IMG/VR virus record: IMGVR_UViG_3300035703_002996
Span: 1 to 24,543 of that record
DNA length: 24,543 bases
Direction: 5' to 3' (one strand)
Origin: a virus
Shown here: positions 1,588 to 24,511 of the stretch, piece after piece
How positions within the stretch are numbered: the stretch's first letter is position 1
How the letters are laid out: each line of letters starts with the position of its first letter
Program-made: the position numbers and the translations under genes
The notes under the pieces: model-generated
Databases searched by the model: none
What the model was told of the DNA's origin: nothing
What the model saw: the letters and a program-made list of their open reading frames with translations, nothing else

Positions 1588-3957
1588 TCAAAACTCCATC
1601 GGGCTGGTCTGGGGTTGGGCCTGACGCAGGGCGACGCCCCGGAACCCCCGGGCTTTGTTGGTGTTGGCGCGCTGAAATCCGCGGTTGGTGAGGGTCTCGG
1701 AGAACCGCTTGTTCGAGCCCGCGAATTCGCCGTTCGCATCCGCCCAGCTCTTCCAGTCAGCGTAGAGCCGCTGGGAGGTGTCCTGCAGATGCGGAGCTTG
1801 GTCGCAGCGCTCCTCGAGCCACCGCCCCAGAGCATCCTCGGCCTCGAAGTATTCCTCGGTGGCAGCGAGGACAGACGCCGGCGGCTTCAGACCTGTCCGC
1901 TGCCATTCCAGACAGCCCTGCAGCGCCCAGGCGAGAATGCCGTCGCGTTCCGCCAGCAGCCGATCCGGCAGACGCTTGTCGCGCTTGTGGGCCGGGATGG
2001 TGACCGTGAACGGGATCATGTGCAGACGGCGACGCATCGCCTCGTCGACATTGCGGATCGAGGGTTTGTGGTTGCCTACCACCAGCAGCTTGAACTGGGG
2101 CATGAACTCGAAGAAGTCCTGGCGCATGAACCGGGCGGTGATCTTGTCGCCACCGGTCAGCGCCTTGAGCTTGCTCTCGGCCCAGCGGCTGCCTTGTTCG
2201 GTCTCGATCGCGGATACGACACGGGCGCCCCGCAGCCCGGCCATATCGGTCGGGTGCCGGTCTCCATGGCTCGCCATGAACATGTCCATGGCTGCCACCG
2301 TCGCGTAGTCGCCGATGATGGCGGTCAGCGTATTGGCGAACACCGACTTGCCGTTCGCGCCGGTGCCGTAGAGGAAGAACAGCGCGTGCTCGGTCGTGAC
2401 CCCGGTTAGGCAATAGCCCGCCATGCGCTGAAGGTATCGCTGCAGTTCGACATCGCCGCCGGTGACCGTGTCCAGAAACTCGAGCCAGGTGGGACAATTC
2501 CCTTCTGGCGAAGCCGCTGTGATCTTCGTCATGTAGGCCGGGCGATCGTGGGGTCCGATGGCAGCTGACTGTAGATCCACGATCCCGCCAGGCGTATTCA
2601 GCAACCAGGGGTTGCGATCCCAGACCTCGGTGGTTTCCGCGTGGCGGCGGTCCGCCCGGGCGATCCGTTCGACAGCCGCGATTGTTGATGCCGACGACAG
2701 CTTCGCCTTGAGCTTTGCGCTTGCGGCTTTGCGCGCCGCTGACCGGCAGATCTGGCGCGAGAGGTCATAGGCCTGAAGCGTCTCTTCCTTTCGCCAGACT
2801 GCACCCGTCCAGGTGAGCCATTGGCCCCAAGCTGCGACATAGCGCCAGTCCTCGGAATGCTGGTCGGTGAACGCTTCGGCCAGGGCGTCTTCGGTCAGTT
2901 GGACAGGCGCTGAAATGCCCCCGCTCTGGCCTCCACCAGCAGGTGGGCCGCCGCCAGTAGCGGCGTCGAGATAGTCGTCGCCGTAGCGCGCGGCATCGAG
3001 TTTCCAGATCTTCTCGGCTTCTGACCGGAGCCGGGCCTTCTCCCACGGAGGGTCGATGCGGGCGTTATTGTAATCGACGATTTCCTGCCATGCTTGCTGT
3101 GCAGTGACATGACCCTCGCGGCACCGACGGATCCAGTAGCCGATGATCCGGGTCAGGGCCTCGAAGCGGGTGGTGCCGTCGACGCCGCCTTCTCGGACAA
3201 CCCGCCCGAACAATTCGGTTACTGCACCATGCCCGGAACCCGCATCGTTGAAGTCGAGAGCATTGGGGGCCTCACCCTCCATCGGGGGCATGGCCATCAC
3301 AGCCTCGACCAGATCGCCGAGGTCATGATCCTTTTCGCGGTGCTGGAGGATTTCGACCAGTCGCCGTTGGCCTGATTTTGCGTGAACAGACCCTGCAACA
3401 CGGATCGGCTGGTGCGCCGAGCGGAAGGACGTGTCGCCGCCAACCTTGCAGGCGATCATATACCGTGCCCGGCAGACGGTTGTGATGTCATCTCCCTCGG
3501 CAGGCTCAGACAGGCGCCAGTACAGGTGCAGCTTGCGCTGCCCCTCAGCGGTCACGCCGCCGGACGCCACTTCCATCGTAGGCTCGCCAAGATGCGCAAC
3601 TAGGTGGTCGCGCTTGGCTCCGATGTCCCCGTGATCGAGATCAACCAGAACCACCTGTGTCTGCAGGATCTGGTCAGCCTTGGCCTCACCAGAGATGGCG
3701 ACCGTTCCGGGCACCACGAAAAGTGCCATGCCATTGTCAGCTGCCCATCCGGCCTGCACCGCGAGCTTGGCGGCGAAGTCCGCGTCGTTATCCATGAACG
3801 GCGTATGCGGGATCTGGTCGACGCCGCCTTTTTCAGCGAGCGCACGGACCGGGACCAGATGATCGCAATAGCCGAACACGGCGTCGGCGAAGGTCGCGAT
3901 CATCGCTGGATCGGGAGTGACCGGAGCGGCGGAAGCGCCTTGATCTGTCGCCATCAT
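1588..3957 (-). CDS. P4/D5-type primase-helicase (SF3)
   Basis: A 789-aa replication protein expected to open the origin and prime synthesis. The N-terminal third looks like a RepB/AEP-type primase domain: VVLVDLDHGD near residues 103-111 carries the metal-binding acids, followed by a conserved KLHLYWRL and RSAHQPIRVAGSVH. The C-terminal half is a D5/P4-alpha SF3 helicase: Walker A GTGANGKS near residue 530, a long conserved block with RFMRQDFFEF, then the sensor-like LLVVGNHKP and MRRRLHMIPF, typical of DUF5906 proteins. A Gly-rich linker near residues 330-345 separates the halves. Start: ATGA at 3954-3957 overlaps the stop of the nuclease gene and AGAGGTG lies just upstream. A longer in-frame start at 3993 is less likely. 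It has no partner loader gene here, as expected for self-sufficient P4-like replication. Confidence 0.92.
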   Translation of the reverse strand: MMATDQGASAAPVTPDPAMIATFADAVFGYCDHLVPVRALAEKGGVDQIPHTPFMDNDADFAAKLAVQAGWAADNGMALFVVPGTVAISGEAKADQILQTQVVLVDLDHGDIGAKRDHLVAHLGEPTMEVASGGVTAEGQRKLHLYWRLSEPAEGDDITTVCRARYMIACKVGGDTSFRSAHQPIRVAGSVHAKSGQRRLVEILQHREKDHDLGDLVEAVMAMPPMEGEAPNALDFNDAGSGHGAVTELFGRVVREGGVDGTTRFEALTRIIGYWIRRCREGHVTAQQAWQEIVDYNNARIDPPWEKARLRSEAEKIWKLDAARYGDDYLDAATGGGPPAGGGQSGGISAPVQLTEDALAEAFTDQHSEDWRYVAAWGQWLTWTGAVWRKEETLQAYDLSRQICRSAARKAASAKLKAKLSSASTIAAVERIARADRRHAETTEVWDRNPWLLNTPGGIVDLQSAAIGPHDRPAYMTKITAASPEGNCPTWLEFLDTVTGGDVELQRYLQRMAGYCLTGVTTEHALFFLYGTGANGKSVFANTLTAIIGDYATVAAMDMFMASHGDRHPTDMAGLRGARVVSAIETEQGSRWAESKLKALTGGDKITARFMRQDFFEFMPQFKLLVVGNHKPSIRNVDEAMRRRLHMIPFTVTIPAHKRDKRLPDRLLAERDGILAWALQGCLEWQRTGLKPPASVLAATEEYFEAEDALGRWLEERCDQAPHLQDTSQRLYADWKSWADANGEFAGSNKRFSETLTNRGFQRANTNKARGFRGVALRQAQPQTSPMEF

Positions 3958-4700
3958 GCCCAACACCTCTGTTTCCAGGGGCACCAGGCGCATTCGAAAT
4001 GCTCGGGATCAGACGCGACGCGCGGCAGCCACTCGTCGGCATCGCATGCCTGCAGGATCCGCACGGCCTTGTCGCTGCAGGCCTGGGCCAGGGCCCCGTT
4101 GAACGGGACGAGTTCGTGCCAGAGCTCGCAGGTATCCTTGTTGATGGCAGTGAAGACGGCCGGATGCTCAGTAAGGCCGAGATAGGCTTGGTAGAGCGCG
4201 ATCTGCGCCGCATAGACGGGCTTCGACACTGCCACGCCGCGCTTGGTGATATCACGCCAGTTCTTGGCGTTCGCGGACTTGCACTCCCACAGCGCCGGAA
4301 CAGCGAGTCCATCGGGCGCCGCTACAATGACGCCGTCGATGTGCCCGCGCACTCGGTCGTTTGCGACCGAGAAGCCGAACTGGTCACCATCACGATTACG
4401 GGTGCGCAGATCGTATCCGGCCTGGATCAGCCAATCGACAGCCAGGTCTTCGAAGATGTGGCCAACCGCGAAAATGCGCAGCGTCTTGCCGGAGAAATCT
4501 TCACCGGGGTCGCGCGGGACCTTCAGGAACTCATACTGCAGCTTGCGGGAGCAGCTTTCGCCCAAGCGACTGCCGCCCAGATAGGCGCGGGGTTCGCGCT
4601 CGCCATTTGCCTTGGTGAGAGCATCGTCGATCCGGGCATTCACCAGATCCACGAAGGGGGCCGGCTTTTCCCGGTGATTGAAGTCGAGCGGGCCGTGCAT
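3954..4700 (-). CDS. PD-(D/E)XK nuclease, Cas4/AddB-like with Fe-S cysteines
   Basis: A 248-aa nuclease of the RecB/Cas4 type. Visible motifs: GHIFED (H81, E84), RGHIDGVI (D122), LWECKS (E139, K141) and the Q-x-x-x-Y helix AAQIALYQAY (Q166, Y170). One cysteine before the domain (C50) and three at the end (C237, C240, C246) match the four-cysteine iron-sulfur clamp of AddB, Dna2 and Cas4. It probably processes DNA ends or ssDNA during element replication or recombination. No cas1/cas2 is nearby, so it is not a CRISPR adaptation gene. Start: TGATG at 4698-4702 joins it to the preceding small gene, and GGAGGTG sits 8 nt upstream. An in-frame ATG at 4730 has no such signal. Confidence 0.88.
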   Translation of the reverse strand: MHGPLDFNHREKPAPFVDLVNARIDDALTKANGEREPRAYLGGSRLGESCSRKLQYEFLKVPRDPGEDFSGKTLRIFAVGHIFEDLAVDWLIQAGYDLRTRNRDGDQFGFSVANDRVRGHIDGVIVAAPDGLAVPALWECKSANAKNWRDITKRGVAVSKPVYAAQIALYQAYLGLTEHPAVFTAINKDTCELWHELVPFNGALAQACSDKAVRILQACDADEWLPRVASDPEHFECAWCPWKQRCWA

Positions 4701-6398: not shown

Positions 6399-7452
6399 GG
6401 CGATTCCCTGCGCTGGGGCAACGCGGAAGCACTGGGAGGTCATCTCAGGCTCTGAGTGGTCAGCGCTGTCGCCACTGCTCCGGGCAACGGGCCTCGAAGC
6501 GGAGACCATCCCATGCTTCGAGGTTCAACCAGGTGGTTGTATTCGTCGGATTGTCAGGCATTCGGCCGACAACATCCGCGCCGCATGCGGGGAACCCGGG
6601 GGGCTCTGCAAAAGTGAGAAGCTGACGGCAACGGAGGCTGCGTCACTGGCTCTTGATCGGATAAAGCTGGCTAATGGTCTTGAGCGCGCTCTTCAACTGA
6701 CCAATGGCAAGATGCCTCTGGCATCTCAGAACCTGATCAATCTTGGCCATCACTATGTTCACGCGGGCCTCGGCTTCCCTGTGTTTCTGTGGCTAGGTGG
6801 GAACAGCTTCATGGACGCACACATGGCCTTCGCGGACGTGGAGGCGTCTAAGGGGGGCAAGCTGGTTCTTGCCCCGACGGATTCGGGTCTGGGAGCTTCC
6901 GCAAAGGCTTATCTTACCAAGATCGGTGCGACCGTTATGTCGCTAGACAACCTCGTTGGCATTGACGCTAACGGTATGATCCCACTTGCCCCAGTCGAAC
7001 AGATGCTCGCTACGTTGCGAGCCGAATTTGATGCTTTTGATGACGATAAAAAATGGCGACTGCCCGCTGACGCTACTTGGGCCAAGGTCACTATAGAGTT
7101 TCGTGAGCTACATGAAATAGAGCTGCAGTATAAAGGCGTGAAACCTAAAAGGCTTGCACCTCAGGATCTACAGCTATGGGATTTTGAATCAAATCGTCCG
7201 AAAGCAGGCTGGGAAGTTTTGAAAAACATCCCAGACAACGGCGGAATCCTGAAACCCTTGAAAGTCAAAGCCCGCACGCAAACCCATGAAGCGTTTAAGC
7301 AAATCAAGAAACAGCTGAAGGAGGCGCTTGAAAAGGTCGTCCCGATCCCCGGCGATCCTTTCCAGTACGACTATCGCGAAAAGGTCTACCGGCCACACTT
7401 TATCGTCCGCTCGGAAGCTCTTCGTTCGGGCAAAGAGGGGCAGAACTGGTGA
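6364..7452 (+). CDS. Hypothetical protein, second gene of a two-gene cassette
   Basis: A protein of about 362 aa without a family I can name. Three ATG codons in a row (6364, 6367, 6370) give the likely start; all lie inside the end of the upstream gene, an overlap of about 30 bp that implies coupled translation. The N-terminal part carries several cysteines (IPCAG, IPCFE, GGCIRR, AACGEPGGLC), so metal binding is conceivable but no canonical zinc pattern is clear. The middle contains an alpha/beta stretch from about residue 130 to 190 (GHHYVHAGLGFPVFLWLGG, then GGKLVLAPTDSGLG), which suggests a Rossmann-like fold. The C terminus is Lys-rich. Neither it nor its partner has visible transposase, methylase or toxin motifs. 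The stop codon lies within the first GTGAAATTTCAC palindrome. Confidence 0.8.
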   Translation: MMMATKIWAAIEAIPCAGATRKHWEVISGSEWSALSPLLRATGLEAETIPCFEVQPGGCIRRIVRHSADNIRAACGEPGGLCKSEKLTATEAASLALDRIKLANGLERALQLTNGKMPLASQNLINLGHHYVHAGLGFPVFLWLGGNSFMDAHMAFADVEASKGGKLVLAPTDSGLGASAKAYLTKIGATVMSLDNLVGIDANGMIPLAPVEQMLATLRAEFDAFDDDKKWRLPADATWAKVTIEFRELHEIELQYKGVKPKRLAPQDLQLWDFESNRPKAGWEVLKNIPDNGGILKPLKVKARTQTHEAFKQIKKQLKEALEKVVPIPGDPFQYDYREKVYRPHFIVRSEALRSGKEGQNW

Positions 7453-11885: not shown

Positions 11886-12088
11886 AACGCCCCAATCCGC
11901 ATCCACCAGGCGAAATGACGCCCGCCCAGCGGCGGACCGAGCTGTGCGCTATCCTCGGGCTTGGCCTCGCCCGCCTGCACCTTCGGAATGGCGGTCAACT
12001 ATCTGAAGAAGATGGAGACTTTCCGCTACACTTCGCGCCTGAACAGAGCGGTAGTGCACCTCCAACTCACTGGAGCAACGCACAATGA
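11882..12088 (+). CDS. Small conserved protein of the DUF2924-recombinase cassette
   Basis: A 68-aa protein opening MKRPNPHPPGEMTPAQRR with a following helix LCAILGLGLARL and a polar tail. From memory, small proteins with this beginning sit directly upstream of DUF2924 and recombinase genes in many alphaproteobacteria. The function is unknown. GGAG is 7 nt before ATG 11882. The start overlaps the helicase stop (ATGA) and the stop overlaps the next ATG (ATGA at 12085-12088), so it is coupled on both sides. Confidence 0.78.
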   Translation: MKRPNPHPPGEMTPAQRRTELCAILGLGLARLHLRNGGQLSEEDGDFPLHFAPEQSGSAPPTHWSNAQ

Positions 12089-12534
12089 AACCCGATCCCG
12101 TACTTGCCCGCCTGGCCGCCATGAAGGCGGCCCCGGTGGCCGAGTTGAAGAAGCAGTGGCGCGATCTTTTCAATGAGGAGCCGCCGGCCTTCAACCGGCG
12201 CTACCTCGAAAGCCGCCTTGCCTACCGCATCCAGGAACTGGCCTACGGAGGCCTCAAGCAGGAAACGGTCAGGCGCCTGCAACAGATGGGCGAACAGCTC
12301 GACGGCGGCAACATCACCACCCGCCGCGTGCGGGCTGACCTGAAGCCGATCGTCGGGACCCGTCTGATCCGGGAGTGGCAGGGTGTCGAGCACACCGTGA
12401 CCGTCACCCAGGACGGTTTCGAATGGCAGGGGCGCTCCTACCAGTCACTGTCCGCAATCGCCCGCGCCATTACCGGGTCGCGCTGGAACGGCTGGATATT
12501 CTTCGGCCTCAAGGATCATCGGAGGGCCGCATGA
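12085..12534 (+). CDS. DUF2924 family protein
   Basis: A 149-aa protein with the DUF2924 pattern: ELKKQWRDLFNEEPPAFNRRYLESRLAYRIQEL split over the first 55 residues, a basic helix, then GTRLIREWQG and QDGFEWQGRSYQSLSAIARAITG with SRWNGWIFFGL near the end. The C-terminal module resembles small DNA-associated domains. The family almost always precedes a large serine recombinase, as here, and is thought to assist recombination, though its role is not proven. The ATG overlaps the previous stop and its own stop overlaps the recombinase ATG (ATGA at 12531-12534). Confidence 0.9.
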   Translation: MKPDPVLARLAAMKAAPVAELKKQWRDLFNEEPPAFNRRYLESRLAYRIQELAYGGLKQETVRRLQQMGEQLDGGNITTRRVRADLKPIVGTRLIREWQGVEHTVTVTQDGFEWQGRSYQSLSAIARAITGSRWNGWIFFGLKDHRRAA

Positions 12535-13841
12535 ACACGCCTATCACGCGCAAACTGCGCTGCGCGGTCTACACGCGTAAATCATCGGAGGAAGGGCTCG
12601 AGCAGGAGTTCAACTCGCTGCATGCCCAGCGGGAGGCCTGTGAGGCTTACATCACCAGCCAGCGCGCCGAAGGGTGGGTGCTGGTCCGCGACCAGTATGA
12701 CGACGGCGGCATTTCCGGCGGCACCCTTGATCGTCCGGGACTGAAGCGCTTGCTCTCGGATATCGAGGACGGGCTGGTCGACGTGGTTGTGGTCTACAAA
12801 ATCGACCGCCTCTCGCGATCCCTGATGGACTTTGCCAAGCTGGTCGAGGTCTTCGACCGGAACGACGTGACATTCGTGTCCGTCACTCAGTCGTTCAATA
12901 CAACCACCAGCATGGGCAGGCTGACCCTTAACGTCCTGCTGTCCTTCGCCCAGTTCGAGCGCGAGGTGACCGCTGAACGCATCCGCGACAAGTTCGCCGC
13001 TTCCCGGGCCAAGGGGATCTGGATGGGCGGCGTCCCCCCGCTGGGCTATGATGTTCAGGCGCGCAAGCTGGTGGTGAATGAAAAGGCGGCCGCCAATGTC
13101 CGCTACATTTTCCAGCGGTTCCGCGATGTCGGCTCGGCCACACTTCTGCTGCGGGAATTGCGGGAGCGAGGCATCACGACCCGCCAAGGCAAGACGATCA
13201 CCAAGGGTTACTTGTATCGCCTGCTCGCCAACAAGGCCTACATCGGGGAGGCCGTCCACAAGGGCAACAGCTATCCCGGCGAACATGACGCGATCATTGA
13301 GCAGGAGCTCTGGGATGCTGTGCGCGCCATCACGAAGGAAAGCCCTCGGACCCGGGCGAATCGTGCGCGCGCCAATACGCCTGCCTTGCTGAAGGGACTG
13401 CTCTGGGGTTCGGATGGCGGGGCGTTTTCACCGACCCACTCCTGCAAGAACGGCAAGCTCTACCGCTACTATGTCAGCCAGACGCTGCTCCGCCATGGAG
13501 CAGGTTCCACCACGGTGGGGCGCGTGCCTGCCGCCGAAATCGAGGGCGCGGTCGTCAACCTGCTGCGGGCCGTGTTCCGGCAACCGGAAATCATCATCGG
13601 CGCATGGAAGGAGGCCGTCAAACACGCCCCCGGAATGACCGAAGCTCAAGCGCGGGAGGCCCTTATCAATCTGGACCCAATGTGGGATGAACTGTTCCCA
13701 GCCGAGCAGGCCCGGATCGTGCAGCTATTGGTCGACCGGGTCATTGTTGGAAGCGCCGGATTGGAACTGAAGCTGCGGGTGGACGGGCTCGATGCGCTGG
13801 TCCGCGAACTGCAGGTGCCGGAACTGGAGGAGGCAGCGTGA
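12531..13841 (+). CDS. Large serine recombinase (resolvase/integrase family)
   Basis: A 436-aa site-specific recombinase. The catalytic domain covers roughly residues 8-150: YTRKSSEEGL with the probable nucleophile Ser18, QREACEAYI, VVVYKIDRLSRS with active-site arginines, and the helix LSFAQFEREVTAERIRDK. A recombinase (PF07508-type) domain follows with PPLGYD and YLYRLLANKAYIGEAVHKG, then a zinc-ribbon-like segment in which several of the usual cysteines are missing; only SPTHSCKNGK is visible. It probably integrates and excises the element. The ATG at 12531 has GGAGG upstream and overlaps the DUF2924 stop. An upstream in-frame start would lie inside DUF2924 and is rejected. Confidence 0.93.
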   Translation: MNTPITRKLRCAVYTRKSSEEGLEQEFNSLHAQREACEAYITSQRAEGWVLVRDQYDDGGISGGTLDRPGLKRLLSDIEDGLVDVVVVYKIDRLSRSLMDFAKLVEVFDRNDVTFVSVTQSFNTTTSMGRLTLNVLLSFAQFEREVTAERIRDKFAASRAKGIWMGGVPPLGYDVQARKLVVNEKAAANVRYIFQRFRDVGSATLLLRELRERGITTRQGKTITKGYLYRLLANKAYIGEAVHKGNSYPGEHDAIIEQELWDAVRAITKESPRTRANRARANTPALLKGLLWGSDGGAFSPTHSCKNGKLYRYYVSQTLLRHGAGSTTVGRVPAAEIEGAVVNLLRAVFRQPEIIIGAWKEAVKHAPGMTEAQAREALINLDPMWDELFPAEQARIVQLLVDRVIVGSAGLELKLRVDGLDALVRELQVPELEEAA

Positions 13842-14927: not shown

Positions 14928-14942
14928 GTTCTTTTTATGTTC
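14928..14942 (+). promoter_or_regulatory. Alphaproteobacterial SOS box (LexA site) before umuDC
   Basis: GTTC at 14928-14931, seven bases, then GTTC at 14939-14942: an exact GTTC-N7-GTTC LexA site as defined in Alphaproteobacteria. It ends 22 bp before the umuD start. A further GTTC at 14944-14947 makes an imperfect extension with GAAC at 14954-14957. Confidence 0.88.
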
Positions 14943-14964: not shown

Positions 14965-15384
14965 GTGCTGCGTCTTGTCGATTATCCCACAACGCTCGAA
15001 TTGCCGTTGTTCGGTTCGCCTGTTGAGGCTGGCTTCCCCAGCCCGGCTGATGACCACATCGAGGGCAAGCTCGATCTCAACGAGCATCTGGTTCGGCGGC
15101 CGGCCGCAACCTTCTTTGTGCGGGCGGCCGGGGAATCCATGCGTGGCGCCGGGATTTTCGCCGGTGACCTGCTCGTCATCGACCGAGGAATCACCCCGCA
15201 GCCCGACGATATCGTCATCGCCGTCGTTCATGGCGAACTGACTGTCAAACGGCTCCAGAAGGTCGACGGCGCATGGCAGCTGGCAGCCGAAAACCCAAAG
15301 TTCCCGACCTTGCCAATCCGTGATGATGGCTGTGAAATCTGGGGCGTCGTCACCCACAGCATCCGGCGTCATTGTGGACGCTGA
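14965..15384 (+). CDS. umuD: DNA polymerase V autoproteolytic subunit UmuD
   Basis: A 139-aa LexA/UmuD-family S24 peptidase, the same length as E. coli UmuD. RecA filaments are expected to trigger self-cleavage, giving the active UmuD' that joins UmuC in translesion synthesis. The cleavage site is A22-G23 (PVEAGFPSP), the nucleophile Ser58 lies in GESMRGAGI and the general base Lys95 in LTVKRL. There is no N-terminal DNA-binding domain, so it is not LexA. The GTG start follows a GGAAC-like site and an SOS box. The stop overlaps the umuC ATG (TGATG), indicating coupled translation. Confidence 0.93.
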   Translation: MLRLVDYPTTLELPLFGSPVEAGFPSPADDHIEGKLDLNEHLVRRPAATFFVRAAGESMRGAGIFAGDLLVIDRGITPQPDDIVIAVVHGELTVKRLQKVDGAWQLAAENPKFPTLPIRDDGCEIWGVVTHSIRRHCGR

Positions 15385-16652
15385 TGCCCACCTTCGCACT
15401 GGTCGACTGCAACAACTTCTATGCATCCTGTGAGCGGCTGTTCCAGCCGGGCTTGCGGGAGCGGCCCGTCGTGGTCTTGTCCAATAACGATGGTTGCGTG
15501 ATTGCCCGCTCCAATGAGGCAAAGGCGCTGGGCATCGCGATGGGCGCACCGCTGTTTAAGATCCGCACGCTGGTCGACGAGCATGGCGTCATCGTCCGTT
15601 CCTCGAATTACGCCCTTTATGGGGACATCTCTGAGCGCGTGATGAGCGTGCTGGGTTCACAGGCGCCTGCCCATGAGATCTACAGCATCGACGAATGCTT
15701 CCTCGACCTCGACCGGATGGCGGTCGACGATCTCACCGACTGGTGTCGGAACCTGAGGCGCCGCACACACCAGTGGACCGGAATCCCGGTATCGATCGGC
15801 GTCGGGCCAACCAAGACCCTGGCCAAAGTTGCCAATCGGCTGGCGAAGAAATCAGCCAAGGCGGGCGGCGTCCTTGATCTCAGCCACAACCCGCAATGGA
15901 CGGAGGCGGCACTGCGCAAGACTGCCGTGGGCGATGTCTGGGGGATTGGGCGGCGCTGGACCGCAATGCTGGAGGAGCGCGGTATCCATACGGCCCATGA
16001 TCTCGCTAGTGCCCAGGACGGTTGGGTGCGGCAGCGCATGGGCATCGTCGGACTAAGAACGGTTCATGAGCTGCGCGGGATTGCCTGTCATGCGCTCGAC
16101 GACCAGCCAGCACCGCGCCAGACGACATGCTGCTCACGCACCTTCGGGGAAGCGATCCGCGACAAGGGCCAGGTCCACGATGCGGTCATGAGCTTCGCCG
16201 AGCGGGTGGCCGAGAAGGTTAGGCATGCCAGACAGGTGGCGGGCGCGGTCCAATTGTTCATCCGGACCGACCCATTCGACCAGAACGCCGCGCAGAAGTC
16301 AGTGTCGGGTTCCGCTTCATTCCAGCGCCCTACCAGTGATACCCGCGTCATTACCGATGCCGTCCTGCGCATCTTCGATCGCATTTGGCGGGATGGGTAT
16401 GGCTGGAGGAAGGCCGGAGTGCTGCTTCTCGACCTCGGTGATCCTGCCTCGGTGCCTGCGTCGCTGTTTGACTTGATGGATCAGCCTGACGGCCTGATGG
16501 CGGCGCTGGACGAGATCAACTCCCGTTTCGGTAGCGGCAAGGTCCGCCTGGGGCTGGCCCGCAAGGGCGGCGAATGGCGAATGCGGCAAGAAAACCTGTC
16601 GCCCAGCTTCACGACCCGGTGGGGGGATATCCCTGCCGCGAAGATGGGCTGA
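15384..16652 (+). CDS. umuC: DNA polymerase V catalytic subunit UmuC
   Basis: A 422-aa Y-family translesion polymerase, the same length as E. coli UmuC. The palm carries FALVDCNNFYASCERLF (first catalytic Asp) and YSIDECFLDLD (second acidic pair). VVVLSNNDGCVIARS and MGAPLF are the fingers region, followed by GVGPTKTLAKVANRLAK. The little-finger domain and a C-terminal DUF4113 segment (QENLSPSFTTRWGDIP) complete the protein. It starts 4 nt past the UmuD frame (TGATG) and is SOS-controlled with umuD. The last 33 codons recur, diverged and frameshifted, at 23676-23776, so the 3' end of this gene marks an island junction. Confidence 0.95.
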   Translation: MPTFALVDCNNFYASCERLFQPGLRERPVVVLSNNDGCVIARSNEAKALGIAMGAPLFKIRTLVDEHGVIVRSSNYALYGDISERVMSVLGSQAPAHEIYSIDECFLDLDRMAVDDLTDWCRNLRRRTHQWTGIPVSIGVGPTKTLAKVANRLAKKSAKAGGVLDLSHNPQWTEAALRKTAVGDVWGIGRRWTAMLEERGIHTAHDLASAQDGWVRQRMGIVGLRTVHELRGIACHALDDQPAPRQTTCCSRTFGEAIRDKGQVHDAVMSFAERVAEKVRHARQVAGAVQLFIRTDPFDQNAAQKSVSGSASFQRPTSDTRVITDAVLRIFDRIWRDGYGWRKAGVLLLDLGDPASVPASLFDLMDQPDGLMAALDEINSRFGSGKVRLGLARKGGEWRMRQENLSPSFTTRWGDIPAAKMG

Positions 16653-17565: not shown

Positions 17566-17863
17566 TCATCGCGACCAAAACGCCGAGCGGTTGTCAGCAG
17601 GCATCCCCACCAAGATGACAGCTCATGCGCAGCGACGAAGCCGTGAACGGATTATTCCCCAGCTGATTATCGACGCTTTGCAGGACTATGGCGACACTCG
17701 CCCTGCAGGCAATGGCAGCGAGGAATTCTACTTCACCCGAAAGAGCTGGAAACGCTTTGCATCCTATGTCGGGCCTCAAGCTGACCAGCTTGAGAAGTAC
17801 CGGAACACCTACGCAATCATTGCGTCTGATGGTTTCGTTGTGACCGTTGCATGGCGTCATTGA
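17558..17863 (+). CDS. DUF4258-like small protein, possible toxin
   Basis: A 101-aa protein. TAHAQRRSRERIIPQLIIDAL followed by a Gly-containing segment, YFTRKSWKRF and a final beta strand GFVVTVAWR match the layout of DUF4258/BrnT-like small proteins, which share the RelE-type fold. The HAxxRxxxR helix is the recognisable part. Activity is not shown. ATG 17558 has GAGGAGG about 10 nt upstream and overlaps the HTH gene by 8 bp, so the pair is co-translated, which would suit a toxin-regulator pair. A simple accessory protein is equally possible. Confidence 0.68.
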   Translation: MRDHRDQNAERLSAGIPTKMTAHAQRRSRERIIPQLIIDALQDYGDTRPAGNGSEEFYFTRKSWKRFASYVGPQADQLEKYRNTYAIIASDGFVVTVAWRH

Positions 17864-17895
17864 CCAACATTTTCAGTGAAGTGAGAGACGTGAAC

Positions 17896-18144
17896 ATGAA
17901 AAAGCTGTTCATGATCCGTGAGCGCAGGAAGGGGCCTATCGTTCGAGCGCAAGATGGAGAGATCATCTATTTCTCGAACAAGATGGAAGCTAAGCTGTTT
18001 CTGGCACCGACCCTACGACACAGGTTGCTGGCCCAACGCGTGTCGCCCGCCGTGTCGATCAAGGATTTGGCTACGTCGGTGGAGTTGCCTCGGGTCGAAC
18101 AGAATGTGGCGGTGTTTGGTTATGCGCGCCCCTCTTCGACCTAG
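17896..18144 (+). CDS. Small hypothetical protein
   Basis: An 82-aa protein beginning MKKLFMIRERRKGPIVRAQDGE, basic at the N terminus with a beta-like centre and a disordered end. No family is recognised. The frame also has an ATG at 17851 that overlaps the preceding gene; I prefer 17896 because the sequence from MKKLF looks like a normal start, but neither has a strong ribosome site. It is the last gene of the three-gene regulatory unit before the ZorAB-like operon. Confidence 0.5.
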   Translation: MKKLFMIRERRKGPIVRAQDGEIIYFSNKMEAKLFLAPTLRHRLLAQRVSPAVSIKDLATSVELPRVEQNVAVFGYARPSST

Positions 18145-18181
18145 TGTAAGCGGCCGAACTGCAAGCCTCTGCACATCGCGC

Positions 18182-18210
18182 TTGCGCTTGCGCTAATCTG
18201 AAACGATACC
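18182..18210 (+). promoter_or_regulatory. Tentative promoter for the ZorAB-like operon
   Basis: TTGCGC at 18182-18187 and GATACC at 18205-18210 are separated by 17 bp and lie 46 bp upstream of the small leader ORF. Matches to the consensus are weak, and the -35 element lies in a GCGCTT-repeating stretch. The location after the regulator unit is the main support. Confidence 0.25.
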
Positions 18211-18255
18211 AAGGCGACGTCCTGTTTGACGAGCTGGAATTTGCAAGGAGGGGGC

Positions 18256-18333
18256 ATGCAGGAAGGAAAAATCTACAATCTGTTAGATCTGGCCGTCGAA
18301 CGCGCGTTCTTTCCTTGTTGCATGTGGTATTAA
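18256..18333 (+). CDS. 25-codon leader-type ORF coupled to the ZorAB-like operon
   Basis: A very short ORF with the best ribosome-binding site in the region: AAGGAGGGGG ends one base before ATG 18256. It encodes 25 residues beginning MQEGKIYNLLDLAVERAF and ending with two cysteines, Met, Trp and Tyr. Its TAA (18331-18333) stands one base before the GTG at 18335 of the first large gene, which has no Shine-Dalgarno site of its own. This arrangement suggests translation by termination-reinitiation, so the ORF may set the expression level of the operon. It could also be a real micropeptide. Confidence 0.5.
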   Translation: MQEGKIYNLLDLAVERAFFPCCMWY

Positions 18334-18334
18334 A

Positions 18335-19747
18335 GTGGCCGCGTTCGACGCTCTCAGGAAGTTTTTTAAACCGAGCGATGTAACTATTGCTCTGCCAACA
18401 GACCCATTCATTGCTCTCGATCGCGAAAAGGCCATCGAGAAGTTGAAGCTCGATCAGCGTGCGAAGGAGAATGGCAGCAGGAATTACCCGCCGCCAGACT
18501 CCGAGATGCTCGATGATGTCGAACTTGAGATTACCACCGAGATTGGTGAGCACGCCGCACGCGCCCAAATCGACGCTGCAACTAATCACCGCGTTTATGG
18601 CGAGCGCCTCTCAGAGCTTGCGCTATTGCGTGAACTCTCAACAATTTCTGGTGCGAGTGAGCAGGCCCTTGGCGACTATCGAACGATTGTCATTAATCGC
18701 GAAGGCCGTCTGGCCCTTGCAAAGGATGCGATCAAAGAATCCTATCAGGAGCTGGCTGCATTCAAGCAGGAGCATGGTCTAAACCGTCCTGCACACCGCG
18801 GCCTGCATCCGGCCTATGCGTGGTCAACGATTGGGATTTCCTGGTTCGTTGAAAGTGGGTTTAATACAGCATTCCTCCGAGTAGGCGATGATCTCGGGAT
18901 TCTCGGCGGATTTGTCGCGGCCGCGGTTGTAGCCGCGGTGAACGTCTTCTTGTCCGCATTGGTTGGGCGCTTCTGGTGGCCGTACCTCTTCCACAAGAAC
19001 CCGTTCCAAAAACGCTTTGCACTTGTTGGATGTGCAACCTGGCTTCTGGGGCTAATCGTTTGGAATCTCCTCGCCGGCCATTTTCGTGATGCCAAGGCCG
19101 CAGGTCTGGACAGTCCTGAAACGTCTGCGTTGAGCCTGTTCCTGAATGGCCCTCTCCAGTTCGATAGCATTTATTCGTATGGCCTGCTGCTTGCAGGCAT
19201 AGCCTTTGCCCTCTTGTCCGCAACAGCCGCATACAAGATGGATGATCCATACCCTGGCTATGGAGCGATCTACCGTCGGCACGAGGACCGGTGCGAAGAA
19301 TATGCCGACGAAATTGAGCTTGCCATGGACGAACTCAAGGATACCAGGGACGAGGCCATCGCGCTGGCAAACGAAATACGCGATGAATTAGGGGTTCAGT
19401 TCAGAGAGCGAGGTCAAATCCTCGCTGCACGCGAAACCCATCGCACCCGATATCGCGAGCATCAGGACTATCTGGAAATGATCGCGGGCGCGCTCTTGGG
19501 CCACTATCGGGCTGCTAATACCAAGGCTAGATCAGATGGGCTGGTGCCGGCCCACTTCAATACGAAGTGGGCACTGAAAAGGGCCGAACTACCGATGGAT
19601 GCGGACGAGCCCACTATCGATGATGAGGTAGTGCGCGCACAGGAAGCCCTCGAGAACTCCATCAAGACAATAGCTTCCGCCTACCGCGAGGCGATCGAGA
19701 GCTTTGAGCATCTCGACAAGATCAAGAGGTCGCTTGGAGATGGCTAG
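18335..19747 (+). CDS. Four-TM coiled-coil membrane protein of ZorAB-like system
   Basis: A 470-aa membrane protein. A hydrophilic N-terminal part of about 160 residues is followed by four hydrophobic segments near residues 161-181, 186-212, 227-248 and 279-299. A long charged helical C-terminal part (about 311-365 and 425-470) is likely coiled coil. With four segments both ends should be cytoplasmic. I recognise no named family. It is not the MotA-like component, because that gene stands third in the operon. Gene order and the 8-bp overlap with the next gene point to a structural or regulatory subunit of the envelope machine. GTG 18335 is the only usable in-frame start after the stop at 18284, and its translation is probably coupled to the preceding 25-codon ORF. 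Confidence 0.8.
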   Translation: MAAFDALRKFFKPSDVTIALPTDPFIALDREKAIEKLKLDQRAKENGSRNYPPPDSEMLDDVELEITTEIGEHAARAQIDAATNHRVYGERLSELALLRELSTISGASEQALGDYRTIVINREGRLALAKDAIKESYQELAAFKQEHGLNRPAHRGLHPAYAWSTIGISWFVESGFNTAFLRVGDDLGILGGFVAAAVVAAVNVFLSALVGRFWWPYLFHKNPFQKRFALVGCATWLLGLIVWNLLAGHFRDAKAAGLDSPETSALSLFLNGPLQFDSIYSYGLLLAGIAFALLSATAAYKMDDPYPGYGAIYRRHEDRCEEYADEIELAMDELKDTRDEAIALANEIRDELGVQFRERGQILAARETHRTRYREHQDYLEMIAGALLGHYRAANTKARSDGLVPAHFNTKWALKRAELPMDADEPTIDDEVVRAQEALENSIKTIASAYREAIESFEHLDKIKRSLGDG

Positions 19748-20558
19748 GAAGCTGACAGCTGCGCAAAAACGTCGCAAAGGCGACGCGTTCAAGGCCTATC
19801 GAAATATCGGCATCGTGGTTGCCCTCTTGGGTATCATCGCGTTCTTCTATTATAATTCTGTCCTAGCCCACCGAAACTTGGATGCGGAAACCTTGTGTCC
19901 TTCGCAACCGGACAGCCTCACAGTACTTCTGGTCGACGTGACTGATCCGATGAATTTGCCGCAACGCCAGGATTTCCTCAATAAGCTCGACCGGTTGACG
20001 GATCAAATACCTCGCTATGGCAAGCTCGTCATTGCAAAGGTTGATCCGGTTTCGGATCGCTTGCTGGTGCCCATCATAACTCGGTGCAACCCGGGATCGG
20101 CCAAGGATGTAACCGAGGTCGACGGCAATCCCCAAAAGCTCGAAAAGATGCACCAGGAGCGGTATCTTGCGCCGCTCAGGCGCGCGTTTGAAGGGCTCAC
20201 TTTGGCATCTGGAGCCAATCGCTCACCTATCCTTGAATCAATTCAGTCGGTAAACCTGACTGAGCTGCAGAAGAAAACGAATGAGGCGACCGACAAGAGG
20301 CTGATCGTCGCTTCAGACCTGCTGCAAAACACCGATGAAATCAGCTTTTATGGCCGCTTGCCAGAACCACAGGATTTGCTTCGGAGCCAGCCATTTAGCC
20401 GTGTTCGCACTGACTTGCGCGGGGTCGATGTGGAGCTGTGGATGTTGCAGCGCAGTGACTCAACGGACACGCAGCCAAGAGCGCTTCCAAATCTTTGGGA
20501 GAAGATTATCGATGAACAAGGTGGCCGTCTGGCTAGAGTTTACACGGTGAGTGGATAA
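19740..20558 (+). CDS. Single-TM protein with vWA-like domain
   Basis: A 272-aa protein. Its very basic N terminus (MARKLTAAQKRRKGD) and one hydrophobic segment at 22-43 predict N-in, C-out topology, placing the rest in the periplasm. The soluble domain has a von Willebrand A-like pattern: VLLVDVTDPM at 62-71 in the position of the metal-site D-x-S-x-S, RSPILESI near 161-168 where a Thr/Ser is expected, and KRLIVASDLLQNTD at 187-199 with the usual Asp. The site is only partly canonical (D-x-T-D), so metal binding is uncertain. The ATG overlaps the previous gene by 8 bp and the next gene begins right after its stop (TAAATG). A sensor or adaptor role in the machine is inference. Confidence 0.75.
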   Translation: MARKLTAAQKRRKGDAFKAYRNIGIVVALLGIIAFFYYNSVLAHRNLDAETLCPSQPDSLTVLLVDVTDPMNLPQRQDFLNKLDRLTDQIPRYGKLVIAKVDPVSDRLLVPIITRCNPGSAKDVTEVDGNPQKLEKMHQERYLAPLRRAFEGLTLASGANRSPILESIQSVNLTELQKKTNEATDKRLIVASDLLQNTDEISFYGRLPEPQDLLRSQPFSRVRTDLRGVDVELWMLQRSDSTDTQPRALPNLWEKIIDEQGGRLARVYTVSG

Positions 20559-21803
20559 ATGAGTGATAGAATTCCCCTAGTTGACCGGCTGAAAGACCGC
20601 GGCTTTATTGATCAATGGGGCTTCATCGCATTTGCGGTCGTGGGCTTTGCGGGAATTGTCTCGGCAAAATGGTTTGAGGCGGAGACCCTCTGGGTCGCAG
20701 TTGGCGCCATCGTGGCAATGTTCGGCTATGCGATTATCATTGGCCGAGCAGGGACTGGCCGGTTGAGAGCCGACCAGGCGGGGGACAATTGCTATTATCT
20801 TGGGCTGATCTACACCTTAGCGAGCTTGTCATACGCGATCGCCACTTTCGATCCGAACAACACTGCGACCACGATTGTGCAAGGCTTCGGTATCGCCTTG
20901 GCGACAACCATCTTCGGATTGATCTTGCGTGTGTTTTTCAATCAGGGTCGGCCAGATCTTGAGAATGTCGAGGAGCAGGCCCGCCTAGAACTGACCGAAG
21001 CTGCCAGTCGATTGAAGGGCGAACTTAATGGCGTGGTTCGCACCATGAACGATTTCAGCCGACAGATTCAACAATCGATCCAGGAAGTGCACGACGCCTC
21101 AAAAGCCGTGATCGAGGAGTTTACGGTAAGCTCGGTCGAGGGCCTGAAGATCGTTGTTGATTCTGCAAATGACGCTATTCGTGGCCAAGCCAATGACTTT
21201 GCTACTCGTTCGAAGCGGTACTCGACGACCTTCGACACGCTGCTGAATAAGCTCGAGCAGCATGGTTCGTCGGTAGAAAAAATCGCCAATAACTACGATG
21301 CCCTTGGCGCCGCCGCTGAGGCGGTCAAGCTTACAGCCGAGAGCTCTAATTTGTCGGTCCAGGCATTAGCGAGTAGCGGCGAGTCAGCCAAAGAGTCGGC
21401 ATCACAGGCAGCCCTTGCCTCCCAAGCAGCGCAAGCCATAGCAAAAGAACTTTCGTCGACCGTTTCGACACTTGAGCTCGGCCTGAAGGCAATACGTGAG
21501 GAGACCGACCGGCAGCTCGCACAACTGCAGGTTGGCCCTGCCGATGCCGTTGCGCAGGCCGTGACGACCCTTAAGGGCGCAGCGGTCGCGCTTGAAGAGC
21601 ACATCGCCGAGGTGGGCAAACTGCATGCAAATGTGCAGGCTGACCTCGCGGCTCAGAATGAGGCGGCGATCGCGACCACAAAACAGCACAATGTTGCGCT
21701 CGAAGAGCAACTGAGCCGGTCGAGGCAGCTGGTCGGCCAGGTTCACTCGGCGCTTGTTGACATGACCGAGGGCCTCGCCAGGTCCGTCGAAGGAACAGCT
21801 TGA
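20559..21803 (+). CDS. MotA/TolQ/ZorA-like channel protein with coiled-coil tail
   Basis: A 414-aa protein with four membrane segments near residues 21-37, 43-62, 79-97 and 105-127, then about 280 residues of mostly Ala/Glu/Ser-rich helix to the end. The last two segments (CYYLGLIYTLASL and GFGIALATTIFGLILR) have the look of the conserved MotA/TolQ/ExbB pair, in which Ala-Leu-Ala-Thr-Thr precedes a Gly in the fourth helix. MotA itself has a compact loop domain; ZorA instead carries a long cytoplasmic helical tail, as here. It is followed by an OmpA-domain partner, as in ZorA-ZorB. It would form a proton-driven pentamer, by analogy. It starts directly after the previous TAA. Confidence 0.78.
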   Translation: MSDRIPLVDRLKDRGFIDQWGFIAFAVVGFAGIVSAKWFEAETLWVAVGAIVAMFGYAIIIGRAGTGRLRADQAGDNCYYLGLIYTLASLSYAIATFDPNNTATTIVQGFGIALATTIFGLILRVFFNQGRPDLENVEEQARLELTEAASRLKGELNGVVRTMNDFSRQIQQSIQEVHDASKAVIEEFTVSSVEGLKIVVDSANDAIRGQANDFATRSKRYSTTFDTLLNKLEQHGSSVEKIANNYDALGAAAEAVKLTAESSNLSVQALASSGESAKESASQAALASQAAQAIAKELSSTVSTLELGLKAIREETDRQLAQLQVGPADAVAQAVTTLKGAAVALEEHIAEVGKLHANVQADLAAQNEAAIATTKQHNVALEEQLSRSRQLVGQVHSALVDMTEGLARSVEGTA

Positions 21804-22717
21804 TGGCGGGGTTCGATATCCGTCAGGACAAGTCTTATCGACGCGGGCTAATTCTCGGCCTGACCATCGCCGAGATCATGATACTCCTGATCTTTGTGTT
21901 GTTGATGGCGCTTGCCGCCGCACTCGCGAACCGCGAGAAGCGTTTGGAGGCGGTCGAAGATGGTACAGGAAGCCGGCTCGTGGAAGCGATTCAGGCCGCC
22001 TACCCTGAAGCCAATTCCCCCGACGATTATTACAAGGAACTCGTTCGTGCCATTGATGCCAGGAAGGCTGTTGAAAGGTACGGTGACAAGGCGGCTGGCG
22101 AGAGGCTAGCAGAAGACGCGGAGATTGGGCGCCAAGCCCGAGAAGCAGCAGCAAGGGCCGGTGTCACTAATCCCTCCGAATTCGCCGAACGCGCGATTTC
22201 GCGTGCCAGTGCCGGAAAGAGGGGGGAATGGCCTCCATTCTTCAGCCTGAGCGAAGCAGGTGGCTATTACTTCGAAAGCGGAAAGGCGACGTTGCGCCCT
22301 GATTTTGAACAGAAGCTTCGCACAACCATCATACCGCTGCTGAAGCGCAACATTGATGACTATGGGGTCGATGTTGTCGAAGTGATTGGTCACACCGATG
22401 AAGTACCCATGGTCGGTGCCAGTAACCTCGATCAACTCCTGATCTCGGCATCGGCCAGCCGCACGCCGATTGAAGCACTGCATTCCACCGACAATGCTGG
22501 GTTGGCAATGGCGCGAGCCGTGGCAGTCGTACGTATCCTGCGTGCTGATCCCAGGCTCGCCGGAGTGACTATTTTGCCTCTTTCAGGCGCCCAAATGATC
22601 GTACCAATCGATCGGGTAGCAGACGGTTCATCGAGCCGAAGCGATCAGTCGCGGCGCAGGATCGAAATGAGATTGCGGCGTTCAACAGAGCAGGTAGCCC
22701 CTGCCGAGGGGCGCTAA
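21803..22717 (+). CDS. MotB/ZorB-like protein with OmpA domain
   Basis: A 304-aa protein. A basic start (MAGFDIRQDKSYRRG) leads into one membrane helix, 17-40, containing Glu24 near its cytoplasmic end (LTIAEIMILLIFVLLMALA). MotB and ZorB normally carry an essential Asp in this helix; here the acid is Glu. A helical linker and then a periplasmic OmpA-like peptidoglycan-binding domain follow: GYYFESGKATL (154-164), VIGHTDEVP (194-202), NAGLAMARAVAVVRIL (231-246) and DQSRRRIEMRLR (281-292). TGATG at 21801-21805 couples it to the channel gene. It should anchor the motor to the cell wall. The domain order fits ZorB more than OmpA porins, which have a beta-barrel. Confidence 0.82.
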   Translation: MAGFDIRQDKSYRRGLILGLTIAEIMILLIFVLLMALAAALANREKRLEAVEDGTGSRLVEAIQAAYPEANSPDDYYKELVRAIDARKAVERYGDKAAGERLAEDAEIGRQAREAAARAGVTNPSEFAERAISRASAGKRGEWPPFFSLSEAGGYYFESGKATLRPDFEQKLRTTIIPLLKRNIDDYGVDVVEVIGHTDEVPMVGASNLDQLLISASASRTPIEALHSTDNAGLAMARAVAVVRILRADPRLAGVTILPLSGAQMIVPIDRVADGSSSRSDQSRRRIEMRLRRSTEQVAPAEGR

Positions 22718-22993: not shown

Positions 22994-23653
22994 ATGGGCT
23001 GGGGTGTGCGCAAGTCTCGTCCTTCGCGTCTGGAACGGTATCGGCGGCGGCCGACGAAAGCGCCTCCTCGTTCGCTGACGGGGACAATGCTCGGCCTAGC
23101 TTCCTTCACGGCATTGTTTATCATTGCGATTGTAGTCGCGTTTCAGACACGAACGTCGCCCAGTGCCGATCACAAAAATCAGATGGAGCTGTTAGCGACA
23201 ACTCAGAACCGATCGCCGGGGACGCCTCATTTCACTGAAGCGCGTGGTTCTGACTCTCAGCGCGATGAGGCAAGCGCTTCAACAGAGCAACTGCCGACCG
23301 AGAATGTAGATGCCCGGTTCGAAACCTGTGGGGCCATTCGGATTACCTGCGTGGTCGATGGCGACACGTTTTGGCTCAACCGGCAGAAAATCCGGATCGC
23401 CGATATCGACACTCCTGAGATCAGCCAGCCGCAATGCAAAGGAGAGTATGACCTTGGCATGGCGGCCAAGGCTCGCCTCATCACCCTACTTAATGAAGGT
23501 CCATTCGAACTGCGAAGTGCAGGAAGCAGGGACATAGACAAGTATGGGCGGTTGTTGCGATTGGTCATCCGAAACGAGGTGTCGATCGGGGAGCAGTTGG
23601 TTAAAGAAGGATTGGCCCACCGCTGGGTCGGGTACAAACAATCCTGGTGCTGA
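22994..23653 (+). CDS. Membrane-anchored SNase-family nuclease
   Basis: A 219-aa protein. A strongly basic N terminus and one hydrophobic segment at 31-50 predict an anchor with the catalytic part in the periplasm. After a polar linker, residues 113-219 form a thermonuclease (SNase) domain with every key residue: VVDGDT (D122), KIRIADIDTPE (R134, D139, T140, E142), DKYGRLLR (R186) and LVKEGLAHRW. The active-site spacing matches staphylococcal nuclease, so it should degrade DNA or RNA with calcium. It starts 4 nt after the small gene and closes the operon, which makes it the likely effector. SNase genes also occur alone in island regions, so co-function with the motor genes is inferred from the tight spacing. 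Confidence 0.88.
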   Translation: MGWGVRKSRPSRLERYRRRPTKAPPRSLTGTMLGLASFTALFIIAIVVAFQTRTSPSADHKNQMELLATTQNRSPGTPHFTEARGSDSQRDEASASTEQLPTENVDARFETCGAIRITCVVDGDTFWLNRQKIRIADIDTPEISQPQCKGEYDLGMAAKARLITLLNEGPFELRSAGSRDIDKYGRLLRLVIRNEVSIGEQLVKEGLAHRWVGYKQSWC

Positions 23654-24420: not shown

Positions 24421-24511
24421 TGGCGGAGCAGGAGGGATTCGAACCCTCGATACGCTTTTGACGTATACACACTTTCCAGGCGTGCGCCTTCGACCACTCG
24501 GCCACTGCTCC
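24421..24511 (-). tRNA. tRNA-Ser (anticodon GGA)
   Basis: A 91-nt serine tRNA on the minus strand with the CCA encoded. The 7-bp acceptor stem is GGAGCAG (24505-24511) paired with CTGCTCC, followed by GCCA. The anticodon loop CTGGAAA gives GGA (UCC/UCU codons). The long variable arm (TATACGTCAAAAGCGTAT) is class II, as expected for serine, and the T loop reads GGTTCGAATCC. Its 3' end faces the element, a common target for integration. Confidence 0.95.

Follow-up and report, generated by a model that had tools for sequence, protein, structure and literature searches.

The window analysed here is a stretch of 24,543 nucleotides from a virus record (IMGVR_UViG_3300035703_002996, positions 1 to 24,543), and its plus strand carries four tightly packed genes, termed A to D, that are preceded by a short open reading frame (the leader ORF) and followed at some distance by a nuclease-like gene (Table 1). 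The ATG of gene B at 19740 overlaps the end of gene A by 8 nt (ATGGCTAG), gene C follows directly on the stop of gene B (TAAATG), and genes C and D share one base (TGATG), with TTG 21800 as an alternative start of gene D.

Table 1. Features of the leader region and of the genes downstream of it
Feature	Coordinates	Strand	Basis or remarks
Leader Shine-Dalgarno (SD) site, AAGGAGGGGG	18245..18254	+	Sequence; duplex energy -11.7 kcal/mol
Leader ORF, 25 sense codons, ATG...TAA	18256..18333	+	Sequence; chance rates
5' arm of exact 11-nt inverted repeat, CGTCGAACGCG, within leader ORF	18294..18304	+	Sequence
3' arm of inverted repeat, CGCGTTCGACG, within first codons of gene A	18340..18350	+	Sequence
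Gene A, 470 aa, GTG start	18335..19747	+	Start supported by homologues; three hydrophobic stretches, long helices
Gene B, hydrophobic helix and von Willebrand A (vWA) fold	19740..20558	+	Predicted structure, fold search
Gene C, MotA/ZorA-like subunit with coiled coil	20559..21803	+	Weak matches
Gene D, MotB/ZorB-like OmpA-domain protein	21803..22717	+	ZorB/MotB/OmpA-like matches
Staphylococcal-nuclease-like protein	22994..23653	+	Close to the operon in some homologous loci

From its sequence matches the operon A-D looks like an ion-driven motor operon that is partly related to Zorya, without the known partners of that system. Gene C matched the PADLOC model ZorA2 at 0.0027 and gave weak MotA/TolQ/ExbB-like matches (among the 60 PDB matches listed for it, many were unrelated coiled coils), and gene D matched ZorB1 at 6.8e-6. 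Genes A and B matched no PADLOC model at E <= 0.01, no ZorC/ZorD, ZorE or type III partners of Zorya were found, and the nuclease matched C3a212 (SNc+LTD, 4.1e-8), which is not a Zorya model. Genes C and D thus weakly resemble the MotA/ZorA-like and MotB/ZorB-like subunits of Zorya, whereas their partners here appear to be a coiled-coil membrane protein and a membrane vWA protein instead of ZorC/ZorD or ZorE, as far as these are described in the available part of the Zorya report (PMC11890865). Neither gene A nor gene B hit a family model in the libraries searched. For gene A, whose three hydrophobic stretches lie between residues 183 and 302, these were Pfam, NCBIfam, PHROGs and PADLOC, at the thresholds applied, and its predicted model had no match in the PDB at E <= 0.001. 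The model of gene B (mean pLDDT 84) was closest to integrin I domains and Rpn10, with a TM-score of about 0.4 of the query; weak matches of gene B to a ricin domain (E 0.39 and up) were taken as chance, the fold search having pointed to vWA domains. The operon is a candidate defence or envelope motor system, and no description of the four-gene set was found among the literature titles and abstract openings searched (context: PMC11890865, PMC12204202, PMC12505986).

The operon recurs on plasmids and in genomes of Alphaproteobacteria, sometimes with the nuclease gene nearby. By tblastn against 26 other loci, gene B was detected in 25, gene C in 21, gene D in 15 (one of these matches, in L025, spanning 27 residues) and the nuclease in nine, and OmpA-family or thermonuclease genes are annotated in further plasmid records (L032, L033, L049). 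No relatives of gene A were found in phage records or by direct scan of viral contigs. A viral contig retrieved by means of gene C (IMGVR_UViG_3300017658_000211, L037:3711-4904) holds relatives of both gene A (27% identity) and gene C, so that the operon travels on another element classed as viral. The operon is more interesting than its leader.

The leader ORF stands out by the arrangement of its signals, which run in the order AAGGAGGGGG (18245-18254), a single C, ATG 18256, the 25 codons, TAA (18331-18333), a single A (18334) and the GTG of gene A at 18335, leaving a gap of 1 nt between the two reading frames. An earlier note on this DNA had described a 25-codon ORF with a strong SD site and a stop one base before the GTG, and this layout is borne out. 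Pairing with the 3' end of 16S RNA has a duplex energy of -11.7 kcal/mol at the leader vs -2.9 at gene A, -7.0 at B, -6.0 at C and -6.2 at D, which makes the leader site the strongest of the operon. A core of AAGGAG, AGGAGG or GGAGGG followed by an ATG 2-8 nt later occurs at four distinct places on the plus strand of the window and at one on the minus strand.

For the chance occurrence of such a layout, positions were scored in a broad form (ATG ORF of 8-60 codons, SD energy <= -9, stop within -25..+5 of the position) and in a strict form (SD energy <= -11, gap within 4 nt), the strict thresholds having been set after the case was seen. With the case left out, 60,000 random positions in the 26 other loci gave the broad layout 160 times and the strict layout 9 times, and of 48,515 other positions of the window 168 showed the broad layout and none the strict one; when the case was included, the rates were 68/20,000 (broad) and 2/20,000 (strict). 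Among 233 long ORFs from the window and the 26 loci, two had a broad-type ORF at their 5'-most start, the second being in L033 with a gap of 25, and the strict layout was seen at the leader of gene A alone. By simple arithmetic the broad form is expected by chance in about 5-7% of windows with some twenty genes; the strict form is rarer, but its thresholds are post hoc. The layout at gene A goes beyond what chance would be expected to give.

The assignment of the gene A start bears directly on this layout. The frame of gene A is open for 16 codons 5' of the GTG, up to a stop, with no ATG, GTG or TTG among them, and the next in-frame start after GTG 18335 is TTG 18443. The closest homologues are G755 in L018 (64% identity) and G001 in L044 and G893 in L041 (about 45% each), and in all three an ATG is aligned to the GTG residue of gene A. 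Alternatives near this ATG are a TTG two codons upstream in L018 and, in L044, an ATG in the same frame 19 codons upstream that has no ribosome site and another six codons downstream whose site is better; no alternative start lies beside it in L041. For more distant homologues a script took whichever start lay closest to the position expected, so the gene A start is tested by the three close homologues only. Homology supports GTG 18335 as the true start of gene A, and the refuting case named in the earlier note, a start of the large gene at a different codon from an independent site, did not arise in these three homologues. A frameshifted start of gene A was also considered and was rejected in view of the aligned ATG in the closest homologues.

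Despite the recurrence of the operon, the leader appears to be confined to the present locus among those compared. A flush ATG ORF with a strong site was found at gene A in none of 23 homologous loci, and it was also missing from four further loci (L029, L037, L042, L043). The 23 loci were drawn from the 18 genomes (13 used) and 24 plasmid records (10 used) that match gene A, include some near relatives (L023/L024, L033/L048, L034/L049) and exclude three distant loci (L029, L042, L043) and the two weakest matches, which had no usable start (L014, L017). The closest locus compared has 64% identity, so a leader confined to closer relatives would escape this comparison, for which three homologues are near enough to give a fair test. 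No exact DNA match to the leader start was found in viral contigs and no DNA match to 17860-18420 in plasmids, and a search of plasmid records with the leader peptide gave a single match at E=8, taken as chance. Homologues without the ORF had been named in the earlier note as a refuting result, and this result was obtained; the leader is therefore at most a lineage-specific feature on the sequences compared and not a conserved control point; the possible control function proposed in the earlier note was not upheld in this respect by the comparison across homologous operons.

The strength of the ribosome site at gene A itself varies among the homologues. A site of -6 kcal/mol or stronger lies at the chosen start in 10 of the 23 loci (L018, L019, L022, L023, L025, L026, L027, L032, L041, L045), and the other 13 are above -6 at the homology-chosen start, three of them at -5.9 (L028, L030, L047); in L028 a site of -10.5 is present at an ATG four codons upstream of the chosen start. 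Many homologues therefore combine a weak gene A site with the lack of a leader, and a weak site alone does not demand one. The earlier statement that gene A is without a site of its own holds insofar as the site is weak, but as evidence it counts for less than the wording suggests, 13 of the 23 homologues being equally above -6 without a flush strong-site ORF.

Under loose criteria (at least 6 codons, SD energy <= -5, stop within -30..+20, any start codon) upstream ORFs were seen near the gene A start in several homologues. They include ORFs of 24/27 codons in L025 (SD -10.3/-9.7) that extend about 50 nt into gene A, a 25-codon ORF in L033 (SD -6.0, 14-nt overlap with gene A), ORFs in L032, L046 and L047 that overlap gene A by 7, 8 and 4 nt, and a 12-codon ORF in L026 (SD -5.6) that overlaps an alternative GTG by 4 nt. 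As possible equivalents of the leader these were set aside and treated as background, none of them resembling the 25-codon ORF. L018 also has, near 6957-6987, an ATG frame of nine codons that falls outside the SD <= -5 list; its TGA stop shares bases with the gene A start codon ATG (ATGA), which may be due to chance.

A second unusual feature of the junction is an inverted repeat whose arms, CGTCGAACGCG and CGCGTTCGACG, are exact reverse complements with GTG 18335 lying between them. Exact enclosing repeats of at least 11 nt were found at 50 of 24,080 other positions of the window, at 42 of 20,000 positions taken from other loci and, when the local sequence was dinucleotide-shuffled, in 2 of 5,000 shuffles, and none longer than 7 nt encloses the gene A start at the 23 homologous loci. 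A stem enclosing the GTG is plausible. Overall folding energies are ordinary against shuffles both for 18240-18380 (z -0.61, 50 of 200 shuffles as stable) and for 18285-18360 (z -1.72, 13 of 200 shuffles as stable). In the predicted minimum-energy structure of the free RNA the ribosome site of the leader is itself paired (unpaired 0.00-0.16), and the start-enclosing stem is not part of this structure, being less stable by 0.9, 3.3 or 6.2 kcal/mol depending on the stretch folded; for 18200-18430 the two structures are mutually exclusive at -60.9 vs -60.0 kcal/mol. When a 30S subunit was placed on the leader site in the model, pairing of the 5' arm was 98-99% in the two stretches computed, and the mean accessibility of the GTG region was barely altered (0.37 to 0.33 and 0.41 to 0.33). 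When 18314-18334 was blocked, as a crude representation of a terminating ribosome, the 3' arm was still paired (unpaired 0.01).

The arm sequence CGTCGAACGCG, allowing at most one mismatch, has five occurrences in the window (4873, 5465, 18294, 18340, 22183) vs 1.27 expected, a number reached in none of 100 shuffles; the arms account for two of the five. It is possibly a binding motif.

Translational coupling of gene A via the leader ORF is the best-supported reading of this sequence and is favoured with moderate confidence. The leader would act in cis to bring ribosomes onto the mRNA of the operon: after binding the strong site and translating the 25 codons, a ribosome would terminate at the TAA, and either it or a follower would initiate gene A at the GTG, one base further on. 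Direct initiation would be impeded by the 11-bp stem that can enclose the GTG, until a ribosome translating the leader opened it, and the chained junctions would hand translation on to genes B, C and D. We infer that the leader is transcribed and translated, that gene A depends on it and that the stem forms in the cell; the sequence of the leader peptide itself is probably unimportant. No promoter-like site by the sigma-70 consensus was found in 17850-18500. The suggestion of the earlier note that the leader drives translation of the operon is consistent with the homology-supported GTG start, the weak gene A site, the strong site of the flush ORF, the enclosing repeat and the chained junctions; against it stand the lack of the ORF in all 23 homologues, the weak gene A sites that many of these have without a leader, the ordinary folding energies, the predicted pairing of the leader's own site in the free RNA and the barely altered accessibility of the GTG region in the model. 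Reinitiation is usually aided by a ribosome site near the restart codon, according to the available part of a review (PMC5972666), and as the site of gene A is weak, this counts against a high efficiency of the restart. Another study tested 14 overlapping gene pairs and found strict coupling in 13, the site of the second gene being required to varying degrees (PMC6728339). If true, coupling at this locus would add another candidate to the uORF-driven cases, in an apparent island of Alphaproteobacteria; it would suggest that an operon can exchange a direct start, apparently the state in some homologues, for coupled initiation, and it would offer a single handle for switching a whole uncharacterised motor-like operon on or off.

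The main rival is that the ORF is a chance by-product, that gene A is initiated directly at the GTG and that the purine-rich stretch is incidental or serves as a ribosome standby site. This is possible, if rather unlikely. It accords with the lack of an equivalent ORF at the 23 homologous loci and with the 13 homologues whose gene A site is above -6 kcal/mol; among the 233 long ORFs, too, a site of -6 or stronger at any candidate start is present in 53% and lacking in 47%, and the folding of the leader region is not unusual compared with shuffles. However, the flush strong-site ORF and the enclosing repeat are each rare and yet coincide here, and a ribosome bound at the strong site must in any case translate as far as the flush stop. 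A +1 frameshift at TAT TAA A, which would join leader and gene A into one protein, is suggested by the frame of gene A, which lies at +1 to the leader and is open for 16 codons upstream of the GTG, and it has a precedent in Mycobacterium, where the accessible text reports a uPPE2-PPE2 fusion alongside reinitiation (PMC11260477). We consider it most unlikely, since an ATG stands at the position of the GTG in the closest homologues, with only a TTG two codons upstream in L018 and no other start in L041.

Readings in which the leader senses a signal, or its peptide acts, are further removed from coupling. As a sensor, the leader would toggle by ribosome stalling between the structure that pairs its own site and the one that encloses the start, and the operon would respond to translation stress. 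The two exclusive structures of similar energy in 18200-18430 fit this, as does a uORF upstream of a toxin-antitoxin transcript that senses ribosome-targeting antibiotics, according to the part of that report available (PMC12121999); yet two shorter stretches disfavour the stem by 3.3 and 6.2 kcal/mol, the folding energies are ordinary against shuffles and the leader is not conserved, which makes a sensor improbable. In its fuller form, a translation-sensing switch of a Zorya-like motor operon in which stalling, for example upon phage takeover, exchanges the structures and gates the coupled operon, the idea is very improbable. The earlier note had also proposed that the peptide may itself act. 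A function of the peptide in trans has a precedent in the Sinorhizobium leader peptide peTrpL, as described in the accessible part of the source (PMC7298713); with no equivalent in the 23 homologous loci and a sole plasmid-record match at E=8, the proposal gained no support and is given very little probability here. Transcription attenuation was rejected, there being no terminator between leader and gene A, which are 1 nt apart, and no run of codons for a single residue: the longest same-residue runs in the leader peptide are pairs (LL, FF, CC), and the one terminator-like site in 17850-18500 is on the minus strand. A riboswitch was likewise rejected, as Rfam at gathering scores yielded only a tRNA in the window.

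For the coupling reading, several systems offer parallels. On plasmid R1, translation of tap is coupled to repA, and there, as proposed here, a leader peptide gene is tied to the translation of the next gene; R1 uses antisense RNA. The term leader peptide is applied to R1 tap in the text available (PMC5883639). Mutational support for coupling is described, in the accessible portions of the respective articles, for the short ORF of ORF27-iraD (PMC5574718), the leader of S004-repA of SGI1 (PMC7826253) and the uORF of uPPE2-ppe2 of M. tuberculosis (PMC11260477). The E. coli pair ORF27-iraD is similar in having a short ORF (there 27 aa) with its own SD and a stop that meets the main start, in a structure that can block the main start, and loss of the ORF27 start lowers iraD expression; unlike gene A, with its weak site, iraD has its own, sequestered SD, and CsrA represses ORF27 (PMC5574718). 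On SGI1, a mobile island, repA needs translation of the S004 leader in cis and an inverted repeat likewise lies near the start, but S004 overlaps repA and repA has an SD, whereas the present leader ends one base before gene A (PMC7826253). The tight junction is shared with uPPE2-ppe2, where the uORF is needed and termination-reinitiation operates, while a B12 riboswitch and an AUGA junction belong to uPPE2-ppe2 and not to the present locus (PMC11260477). By analogy, the layout of leader and gene A fits this known kind of uORF coupling and differs from it by the weak site of gene A.

Other parts of the window were also noted. Control of the leader by LexA was considered and rejected: GTTCTTTCCTTGTTG at 18306-18320 is one mismatch off GTTC-N7-GTTC, which we take to be the LexA box, and 17 such matches occur in the window vs 18.5 expected. 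An exact GTTC-N7-GTTC box at 14928-14942 lies just 5' of genes for a UmuD-like S24 peptidase (14965-15384) and a UmuC-like polymerase (15372-16652), and this umuDC pair (14965-16652) is likely controlled by LexA, judging from the position of the box. A large serine recombinase (12375-13841), a DUF2924 protein (12085-12534) and a tRNA-Ser (24421-24511, minus strand) together suggest an integrated island or the edge of a prophage. On the minus strand, 1588-3993 encodes a protein with a D5_N domain and DUF5906, as in phage and plasmid primase-helicases.
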